In this document: one piece after another, positions 50,181 through 53,038 of the stretch
Layout of the letters: each line of letters starts with the position of its first letter
How positions within the stretch are numbered: the stretch's first letter is position 1
Assembly: GCF_023008545.1 (NCBI RefSeq)
Contig: NZ_CP095397.1
Coordinates: 2,418,001 to 2,482,000, forward strand
DNA: 64,000 nucleotides
Source of the DNA: Natribaculum luteum
GTDB lineage: Archaea > Halobacteriota > Halobacteria > Halobacteriales > Natrialbaceae
Direction: 5' to 3'
Notes under the pieces: generated by a model
Database searches by the model: none
The model's input: only the letters and a program-made list of their open reading frames with translations
What the model was told of the DNA's origin: nothing
Translations under genes and position numbers: made by a program

Positions 50181-51671
50181 ATGATTTCCCGGCTCGTACT
50201 CGGGTGCGGGACTATCGGACAACGGATCGTCGAACGACTCGCCGAGTACGACGGTCACCTCCTCGTTATCGCCGACGACCCGGACGTCGTCGAGACGCTT
50301 CGAGACGAGAACGTTCGAGCGCGACGCAGCGATCCGACCGACCCGGACGTGCTCGCCGCTCTCGAGACGCCGGACGCCGTCTTCGTCGCCGACGACCGAA
50401 CCGATCGAAACCGCCGCATTCTCGAGCTCGCGAGCGATCGGTTTCCGGAGGCCGCGTTAGTGGCACACCTCGGCGGGAATCCAGACGGCGAGGACGGGCA
50501 GGTCATCAGGTCGACCGCCGATCGCATCGTCGATCCGAGCCGGGACCTCGCCGAGTGGGTACTCGACCGGACGACGAGTCCGTCGGCGGAGAACGCACTG
50601 GCGTTGCGCCGAAAACTCTCGACGATCGACGGACGACTTGCCGTCGTGATGCACGACAATCCGGACCCGGACGCCATCGCGAGTGCCGTCGCACTCTGTG
50701 ACATCGCGGCGACAGTCGACGTCGACGCGGACGCGTGTTACTTCGGCGAGATCTCACACCAGGAGAACCGAGCGATGGTGAACTTGCTCGACCTCGACCT
50801 GCGAAATCTCGAGCCGGAGGCGTCACTCGAGGAGTACGCCGCGTTCGCACTGGTCGATCACTCGCGGCCGGGTATCAACGACCAGTTGCCCGAGGAGTTG
50901 CACGTCGACGTCGTCATCGACCATCATCCACCGCACGGTCCGGTTCCGGCCGAGTTTTACGACCTGCGCGAGGACGTCGGCGCGACGAGTACGGTCCTCA
51001 CCGAGTACCTAGAGCGGTTCGGTCTCGACCTCGATCGGCGGACAGCCACGGCGTTGCTGTACGGCATTCGAGTCGACACGAACGACTTCACGCGAGAGGT
51101 CTCCTCGAGTGACTTCCGTGCAGCAGCGACCCTGTTGCCCGCCGTCGACGCCAACGTGTTACGACAGGTCGAGGCACCGACGGTCGAAGGAGAGACGTTC
51201 GACACGATCGCCAGGGCGATCAAGAACCGAACCCGGCGCGGGTCGGTCGTCGTCGCGAGCGCCGGACGGCTCTCCAGTCGTGACGCACTTCCGCAGGCGG
51301 CCGATCAGCTCCTCACCATGGAGGACGTGGACACGACGCTCGTCTTTGGCTTCATGGGCGAGATGGTGTTTCTGTCGGCGCGGTCGCGAGCCGGCGAGAT
51401 CGATCTGGGCGCGACCTTGCGGGACGCGTTCGACCCGATCGGAAGCGCGGGTGGACACGCCGACATGGCTGGCGCACAGCTCGAGATCGGCATTCTGGGT
51501 GGGGTAGACGACGAAGAGCAGGTCGACTCGATCAAAAGTGTCGTCGAAGAAGTGATCACGCACCGATTCTTCGAGGCGATCCGAACGCGTCCGGGAACGC
51601 CCGTCGGCGCGTACAGCCAGACGAGCGAGTGGTTGTTCGCCCCCGACGAAGGAGCGAGCGAGAACGCTTGA
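50181..51671 (+). CDS. RCK-type Rossmann domain fused to DHH/DHHA1 phosphoesterase
   Basis: 496 residues. The N-terminal 130 residues are a TrkA-N/RCK-like Rossmann domain with Gly8-Cys-Gly-Thr-Ile-Gly13. A DHH phosphoesterase follows with metal motifs His158-Asp-Asn-Pro-Asp162-x-Asp164, Val-Asp226-His-Ser and Ile-Asp247-His-His249-Pro, and a DHHA1 part with Gly-Ser-Ala-Gly-Gly-His-Ala-Asp-Met-Ala-Gly-Ala. All metal ligands are present, so it should cleave a phosphodiester such as cyclic di-AMP, pApA or nanoRNA; the choice is inference, though an RCK partner would suit cyclic-di-AMP/potassium signalling. Its TGA lies within the terminal sequence of the adjacent IS605-like element. Confidence 0.9.
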   Translation: MISRLVLGCGTIGQRIVERLAEYDGHLLVIADDPDVVETLRDENVRARRSDPTDPDVLAALETPDAVFVADDRTDRNRRILELASDRFPEAALVAHLGGNPDGEDGQVIRSTADRIVDPSRDLAEWVLDRTTSPSAENALALRRKLSTIDGRLAVVMHDNPDPDAIASAVALCDIAATVDVDADACYFGEISHQENRAMVNLLDLDLRNLEPEASLEEYAAFALVDHSRPGINDQLPEELHVDVVIDHHPPHGPVPAEFYDLREDVGATSTVLTEYLERFGLDLDRRTATALLYGIRVDTNDFTREVSSSDFRAAATLLPAVDANVLRQVEAPTVEGETFDTIARAIKNRTRRGSVVVASAGRLSSRDALPQAADQLLTMEDVDTTLVFGFMGEMVFLSARSRAGEIDLGATLRDAFDPIGSAGGHADMAGAQLEIGILGGVDDEEQVDSIKSVVEEVITHRFFEAIRTRPGTPVGAYSQTSEWLFAPDEGASENA

Positions 51672-51680
51672 CGTCCTCCG

Positions 51681-52048
51681 CACGGCGAACGCCGTGGGAT
51701 TCCTCCGTGGGTATCACGGCCCGCATACGCGGGCTCCACCCCGGCTGTGAACGTGCGGGTTCACTGACGCGCCTTCAGCCCTCACACGGAGGGTTGTGGT
51801 GGTCTTGGGTATCTGCTCGGCGTAGCCCTCCCGATGAGGGAGTGGCTCCCAGCGGCGTCCAGCGCACTGGGCAGTGGGCCACGCCATCGGCCTGACCCTC
51901 GATTCCAACCACGAGTGAGGGTCGTCGAGTAGCATGCCAACCACACTGCTGGTTGGGCTGCGAAGGGTGTGTTTGTGTGTAGGAGTGTGAGACCTACTCG
52001 TAGCCATGGTGAGCGTGAGCGGGTTCCCCGCAGCAGCATGCCGCATGC
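51681..52048 (-). ncRNA. Candidate structured RNA inside the IS605-like element
   Basis: Eight local stems of 5-7 bp are visible: 51681-51696, 51719-51734, 51748-51763, 51826-51840, 51865-51876, 51894-51923, 51937-51956 and 52036-52048. Several have perfect 6-7 bp arms with 4-6 nt loops. A minus-strand TATA-like GGTTTAAG (52075-52082) predicts a start near 52051. The RNA would end at the right-end hairpin, where TnpB-type guide RNAs have their guide boundary. Transcription and function are untested. Confidence 0.45.
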
Positions 52049-52074
52049 CTCTGTCGAATAACGTGGAGATTCGT

Positions 52075-52082
52075 CTTAAACC
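52075..52082 (-). promoter_or_regulatory. TATA-like box inside the IS605-like element
   Basis: GGTTTAAG on the minus strand, where an intact element would have its tnpB promoter. The predicted start is near 52051. Confidence 0.45.
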
Positions 52083-52228
52083 TTTCAGATTGCGTGGGTG
52101 ATTCGGGGGAGTCGTGTCGCGTGGTTTGATGCAGTAGTGACGGCTTCATCCCACGAGTAAACTCATGGGCTTTCGCCTGTATATCGTGTAAGGGAGGTTT
52201 TTTCGCCGTCGTCACACTACAGTAGGAC

Positions 52229-53038
52229 ATGGTGTACGCGTCGGACGACAGCAAGCCGCGGGTAAACGAGTACATGACGCGGGACGTGGTGACCGTGTCA
52301 CCCGACGCGACGGTCGGTAACGTCGCAAAACGCATCGCCGAGAGCGACGAGCACAGCGGATTTCCGGTCACGGATCGGCGTCGCGTCGAGGGGTTCGTCA
52401 GCGCACGCGACCTGCTGTTGGCCGACGACGGGGAGCCGATCTTCAAGGTGATGGCGACGGACCTGATCGTGGCTCATCCGGACATGAAAGTCGACGACGC
52501 CGCCCGGGTGATCCTCAGATCCGGCATCCAGAAACTCCCCGTCGTCGACGACGCCGGCAACCTGGTGGGGATCATCTCGAACGCCGACGTCATCCGCAGT
52601 CAGATCGAGCGAGCGACGCCGGAGAAGGTCGTGAAACTGATGCAGACACTCGAGAACATCCACTCGATCGAGCTGCGACAGGAGCGTCGGACGGTCCCGC
52701 TTCGCGAACTCGTCCCGACGCAGGGTCGAGTCTACGCCGACGAACTCGAGGGACGACGATACGAACTCGAACACGGGCTGGCAGAGCCGCTCGTGGTCAT
52801 CGACAACGGCGGGACGTTGCTGTTGGCCGACGGTCACCACCGCGTACTCGCGGCGGATCGACTGGGGATCGACGAGATGGATGCGTACGTGATCGTCATC
52901 GACCAGGAGATCGACCTGGGGATGGCCAGGACCGCCGAGAAAGAGGACCTCGAGAGCCTCGAGGACATCGAAGTCGTCGATTACGCGCGCCATCCGCTCG
53001 TGGAGACGACAGAGCGGCTACAATCGGGCGACGAGTAG
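52229..53038 (+). CDS. CBS-pair and ParB-like (SerK-type) domain protein
   Basis: 269 residues. Two CBS motifs span about 12-62 and 73-128, an adenosyl-ligand sensor. The C-terminal half (about 150-235) is a ParB/sulfiredoxin-like domain with Asp201-Gly-His-His-Arg205. That motif is also present in the archaeal ADP-dependent serine kinase SerK, so a phosphotransfer role is as likely as DNA binding; no helix-turn-helix is present, which argues against a true ParB. The gene starts just downstream of the IS605-like element, so its promoter region abuts inserted DNA. Confidence 0.8.
   Translation: MVYASDDSKPRVNEYMTRDVVTVSPDATVGNVAKRIAESDEHSGFPVTDRRRVEGFVSARDLLLADDGEPIFKVMATDLIVAHPDMKVDDAARVILRSGIQKLPVVDDAGNLVGIISNADVIRSQIERATPEKVVKLMQTLENIHSIELRQERRTVPLRELVPTQGRVYADELEGRRYELEHGLAEPLVVIDNGGTLLLADGHHRVLAADRLGIDEMDAYVIVIDQEIDLGMARTAEKEDLESLEDIEVVDYARHPLVETTERLQSGDE

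Follow-up and report, generated by a model that had tools for sequence, protein, structure and literature searches.

A short IS608-like element on the stop codon of a DHH phosphoesterase gene in the haloarchaeon Natribaculum luteum

Transposons of the IS200/IS605 family are described as inserting without target duplication (PMC7290912). In IS608 (ISHp608), as set out in PMC5934647, the left cleavage site CL is TTAC and is retained on the left as the target, the right cleavage site CR is TCAA, the guide tetranucleotides GL and GR are AAAG and GAAT, and the ends carry subterminal imperfect hairpins. The PATEs of Haloquadratum walsbyi, in the description given in PMC3119063, are too short to encode a transposase, have near-terminal palindromes related to IS605-type transposons, and show neither terminal inverted repeats nor target duplications. 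A third kind of relative is formed by the IS1341-type (tnpB-only) elements of haloarchaea.

We analyzed a window of 64,000 nucleotides of the N. luteum genome (NZ_CP095397.1, positions 2,418,001 to 2,482,000), in which a 524-bp element of this kind abuts a DHH phosphoesterase gene. The features of the locus, in window coordinates, are as follows.

50181 to 51671, plus strand: gene for an RCK/TrkA-N, DHH and DHHA1 protein of 496 aa (open reading frame; Pfam PF02254, PF01368, PF02272)
51669 to 51671, plus strand: TGA stop codon of the DHH gene, consisting of element DNA (open reading frame and sequence)
51668 to 52191, minus strand: 524-bp non-autonomous IS608-like (IS200/IS605) element, PATE-like (four genome copies with different flanks; one other copy with its site empty in the sister genome)
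51668 to 51671, minus strand: right-end cleavage site TCAA (TTGA on the plus strand), from the multi-copy boundary; TCAA is CR in IS608 (PMC5934647)
51678 to 51698, minus strand: right-end subterminal hairpin (folding as single-strand DNA; z -0.54, equalled by 48 of 200 shuffles)
51699 to 51702, minus strand: right-end guide tetranucleotide GAAT, 5' foot of the hairpin (sequence; GR in IS608, PMC5934647)
52150 to 52169, minus strand: left-end subterminal hairpin (folding as single-strand DNA; z -2.29, equalled by 6 of 200 shuffles)
52170 to 52173, minus strand: left-end guide tetranucleotide AAAG, 5' foot of the hairpin (sequence; GL in IS608, PMC5934647)
52188 to 52191, minus strand: target and left cleavage site TTAC (GTAA on the plus strand), retained host DNA that would hold the original TAA (ends of three full-length copies)
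52229 to 53038, plus strand: downstream CBS-domain gene, with its start codon 37 bp from the element (open reading frame, Pfam)

Copies, ends and relatives of the element

The element is oriented antisense to the DHH gene, with its right end at 51668 and its left end at 52191 on the minus strand by the TnpA convention. Three further copies of 51668-52191 were found in the genome at 98-99% identity (C1:188131-188655, C2:468261-468784 and C2:540989-541488); the last is short and lacks the far end, and the other two are full length. The flanks of the four copies were unrelated to each other. The idea that every genome copy sits on a stop codon was rejected, as the other three copies are not at stops. 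The 9-mer TTGACGTCC occurs three times in the window, which is unremarkable by itself (three or more occurrences in 15 of 100 shuffles), and no element sequence follows it at 1139 or 15604.

Read on the minus strand, the element starts directly after TTAC as ACGATATACAGGCG-AAAG-hairpin and ends as GAAT-hairpin-AGGACGTCAA. As in IS608, the insertion lies 3' of a TTAC that is kept at the left flank, there is no target duplication, the right cleavage site is TCAA (4/4 copies), and the guides AAAG and GAAT stand at the 5' feet of the hairpins. The left hairpin stands out from its shuffled sequences; the right one is no stronger than them. The element differs from IS608 in having neither tnpA nor tnpB and in its haloarchaeal host. 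No Y1 (HUH) TnpA was recognized in it, the one element ORF tested (110 aa, 51714-52046) being without a Pfam match, and PF01797 (Y1 transposase) matches lie elsewhere in the genome (three, one of them partial); the element is thus non-autonomous. These Y1 TnpA loci were considered as its parent and set aside because simple patterns detected no right-end signature within 1.5 kb of any of the three. An Rfam scan of 51500-52300 gave a single match, far under the gathering score.

With the PATEs the element shares the lack of a transposase gene, near-terminal palindromes, and the absence of terminal inverted repeats and target duplication; the likeness is one of description, and the present element comes from Natribaculum and occupies a stop codon. 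Over its right-end 100 bp it shares 76-78% identity with three further right ends of the genome, and two of those loci carry Pfam-confirmed tnpB ORFs, which links it to the IS1341-type elements; tnpB is absent here, and what the two have in common is confined to the ends and part of the right-end region.

The stop codon of the DHH gene

The DHH ORF ends in GAG AAC GCT TGA. Among the element copies, the left similarity boundary falls at TTGA in all four and the right boundary at GTAA in the three that are full length. These shared boundaries make 51668 the first element base, and the TGA, which lies wholly within the last four element bases TTGA (51668-51671), is therefore entirely element DNA. 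The element contributes to the gene only the stop and the third base of the last codon.

The data suggest the following course of events. A short transposase-free IS608-like element would have inserted 3' of the TTAC that is the complement of the DHH stop region ...GCG TAA. In a TnpA-type insertion, TTAC would stay at the left flank and the right-end TCAA would be set against the other flank. On the gene strand, the stop is equally offset in the target GTAA and in the right end TTGA (G-TAA, T-TGA). Any NNG TAA hit in this orientation would become NNT TGA, with the same codon ending the frame and only the third base of the last codon open to change. At the DHH gene, an empty GAG AAC GCG TAA would have become the filled GAG AAC GCT TGA, and since GCG and GCT both encode Ala, the protein would be unaltered. 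If the target was GTAA, any gene that now reads into this TGA had TAA at the same codon before. The transposase presumably acted in trans, and neutral retention may be why the insertion persists. Because TTAC and TCAA read as G-TAA and T-TGA on the opposite strand, landing on such a stop would be harmless, and it would be reversible if excision is as precise as in IS608.

Taken together, an IS608-like element almost certainly inserted on the GTAA of the DHH stop, exchanging the stop codon and leaving the protein unaltered, with the exact empty DHH allele as a reconstruction. The case follows from the known target rule of the element. That the matching of TTAC and TCAA is a built-in stop exchange, kept by selection because it protects host genes, is an unlikely extension of it. 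In the literature collection searched, no report of stop-codon exchange by IS605-type TTAC/TCAA elements was found.

A sequence-only reading of the locus had placed the TGA of the RCK-DHH gene inside the end of a mobile element, as the multi-copy boundary at 51668 confirms, and had left open whether the element inserted at the stop codon or truncated the protein and now supplies its stop. Insertion at the stop is supported, and the reconstructed empty site has a TAA in the same frame and at the same codon. It is literally true that the element now supplies the stop, TGA in place of TAA. The suggestion that the last residues may be element-derived comes down to a single base, the T at the wobble position of the final Ala codon, and this change is silent.

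Truncation, meaning an insertion within the DHH coding sequence that removed the C-terminus and left the element to supply a premature stop, was weighed against the orthologues (34 loci at 60% identity or more, 33 without that of Natribaculum breve). The 33 closest orthologues that have no element at the stop include 13 with a final Ala, encoded in 11 of these by GCG before the stop, and 12 with an E-S-A ending. The tails past a conserved motif, found in 28 of the 33, range from 6 to 28 residues, so the agreement is in the type of C-terminus and not in its exact position. A premature stop would be consistent with a DHH stop made of element DNA, and this spread of tail lengths makes the loss of a few residues hard to exclude by length. 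Nevertheless, we regard truncation as very improbable: insertion at GTAA can give a frame that reads into TTGA as NNT TGA only from NNG TAA, the E-N-A ending of the protein resembles the E-S-A of 12 of the 33 close orthologues, and beyond the element the sequence runs on for 37 bp to the next gene. The truncation offered by the earlier reading is accordingly unsupported, given the reconstructed pre-insertion TAA at the same codon and a C-terminus of the orthologue kind. That TTGA is ancestral gene sequence, with the element boundary further in (for example at GTCCTCC) and the coincidence with the stop only apparent, puts just four bases at stake but is hardly conceivable with TTGA at the boundary of every copy between unrelated flanks. 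Insertion on the stop remains the preferred reading.

Related ends were also seen near other DHH genes. In Natronococcus jeotgali, an IS605-type right end of opposite orientation lies no more than about 50 bp after the orthologous DHH stop (L120 4474-4523), apparently an independent insertion near the end of that gene. In N. luteum, a DHH-domain paralogue on the second replicon (G000:C2:567660-572915) is split (L014 1461-1850 and L015 2325-2915) by a block of about 4.1 kb, in which other ORFs accompany a tnpB-like gene broken into two parts and a related right end of the IS605 type.

The sister species and a second gene

The closest DHH protein in the genome collection, at 96%, was that of N. 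breve, which carries the same insertion at the same base after the DHH gene. The insertion at the DHH stop is therefore probably older than the split of the two Natribaculum species. No element-free allele of the DHH locus was found in Natribaculum, both genomes examined (2/2) carrying the element. The DHH-stop element of N. breve is itself interrupted by a 1.1-kb insert that carries a DDE_3 transposase gene (L085 1178-2300); a tnpB gene inside this copy was considered and rejected, as the insert encodes the DDE_3 transposase.

Empty sites were recovered for other copies. The site of the N. luteum copy at C1:188131 is empty in N. breve, where left flank, GTAG and right flank are contiguous, and the site of the N. 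breve copy at C1:1931608 is empty in N. luteum, with left flank, GTGA and right flank, only about 70 bp of the left flank being contiguous in this case. In both, four bases stand where the filled site has the element, as expected from the IS608 mechanism, and each tetranucleotide is one base off GTAA. Since these sites read GTAG and GTGA and not GTAA, strict targeting of TTAC rests on the filled sites and the IS608 precedent.

An 80-bp inverted-repeat sequence was noted near the left end of one N. breve element copy (L086 1574-1653) and beside the cut end of another (L089 1103-1182), and five further copies of it were matched in the N. luteum genome. It resembles the small mobile repeats that invade Haloquadratum PATEs, as these are described in PMC3119063.

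A second stop-codon insertion was found in another genus of the family (genome G049), where a related 388-bp element occupies the stop codon of a tRNA synthetase gene (class I, W/Y type, Pfam tRNA-synt_1b). The gene ends in ...REIRDD, GAT TGA. In the other seven genomes of that genus (7/7), which lack the element, the synthetase ends at the same residue position; the closest relative reads ...REIRDE, GAG TAG, and the other six have Ala (five) or Asp (one) as last residue, with TGA, TAG or TAA as stops. The GAG to GAT change (Glu to Asp) predicted by the rule fits the comparison with the closest relative, and truncation of the synthetase is excluded. The last residue is variable and the closest relative has TAG rather than TAA, so the empty synthetase site is likewise a reconstruction. 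The outcome named in the sequence-only reading as a refutation, orthologues without the element ending at the same residue, was seen at the tRNA synthetase locus; at the DHH locus it was not seen exactly, tail lengths there being variable and the other Natribaculum genome carrying the insertion as well.

How often right ends fall on stop codons

A right-end pattern search of 125 genomes of the family gave 97 matches in 54 genomes, compared with 2 for the reversed pattern. All pattern-found right ends have TTGA, which the pattern requires, and they are no test of the boundary. Together with right ends from earlier loci, the matches formed a first set of 104 distinct right ends, which includes some from other families and at least one site common to two genomes (L281, L289). 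A second set comprised 89 new right ends from other families, and 192 right ends with enough flank were pooled. The base after TTAC was G in 65, A in 60, T in 42 and C in 25 of the 192 (raw counts, uncorrected for flank composition); the surveyed haloarchaeal right ends thus show no preference for C at +1, whereas a strong preference for C is published for IS608 (PMC5934647).

Stop sites were called by a codon-usage classifier trained on the window genes and haloarchaeal loci, nearly all from the same family. Two of the 20 calls, the DHH and tRNA synthetase genes, were checked against orthologues. Another (L397) resembles a peroxiredoxin truncated after FPLLSD, which we take to be a peroxiredoxin motif, and is presumably a false call among the 20. 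By eye, the classifier seems to have missed stop sites at L287, L291 and L040.

A stop codon was hit by 13 of the 104 right ends of the first set, compared with 6.2 expected from GTAA sites of the same loci (p = 0.0008); when restricted to non-disruptive sites, the count was 13 of 74 against 8.4 expected (p = 0.007). Other window lengths for the calls gave 16 and 12 of 104 with similar p values. The second set showed no excess, either overall (7/89, 5.75 expected, p = 0.31) or at non-disruptive sites (7/64, 7.2 expected, p = 0.66). Pooled within loci, 20 of 192 against 11.6 expected (p = 0.0009) is a nominal excess that comes from the first set, and 20 of 138 non-disruptive sites compare with 15.5 expected (p = 0.04). 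The chromosomal supply is 72 stops among 984 GTAA sites, and 20 of 192 was not clearly higher than this (p = 0.14). Stop sites were over-represented relative to gene-interior sites (20 vs 54, compared with 72 vs 722 for chromosomal DNA; OR 3.7, p = 2e-5) and under-represented relative to non-coding sites (OR 0.45, p = 0.004). Enrichment at stop codons is not claimed, the pooled excess coming from the first set and being unrepeated in the second.

Insertion that supplies a stop is recurrent and probably ordinary, and the simplest account of the counts is target supply together with loss of gene-disrupting insertions. The pooled local excess counts against target supply, but it rests on the first set. 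An active preference for stop codons as safe places to land, whether on the part of IS608-like elements or of the hosts retaining them, would agree with the within-locus excess of the first and pooled sets and with the over-representation relative to gene-interior sites. We find it quite unlikely, as the independent second set lacks an excess, the pooled frequency is not clearly above the chromosomal supply, with under-representation relative to non-coding sites, and loss of gene-disrupting insertions can explain the remainder.

Around 1 in 10 of the surveyed haloarchaeal insertions end a host gene, the tRNA synthetase gene among them, and GTAA is rare inside genes. This suggests that target supply makes stop-codon insertions frequent, mainly because the target tetranucleotide is common at stops and rare in GC-rich genes. 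The stop exchange explains a class of odd gene ends: where an IS608-type element lies antisense at a stop, the annotated protein is complete, G to T at the third position of its final codon may alter the last residue in a predictable way (Glu to Asp, for example), and TAA becomes TGA at the stop. The rule helps to separate truncation from harmless insertion in haloarchaeal genomes.
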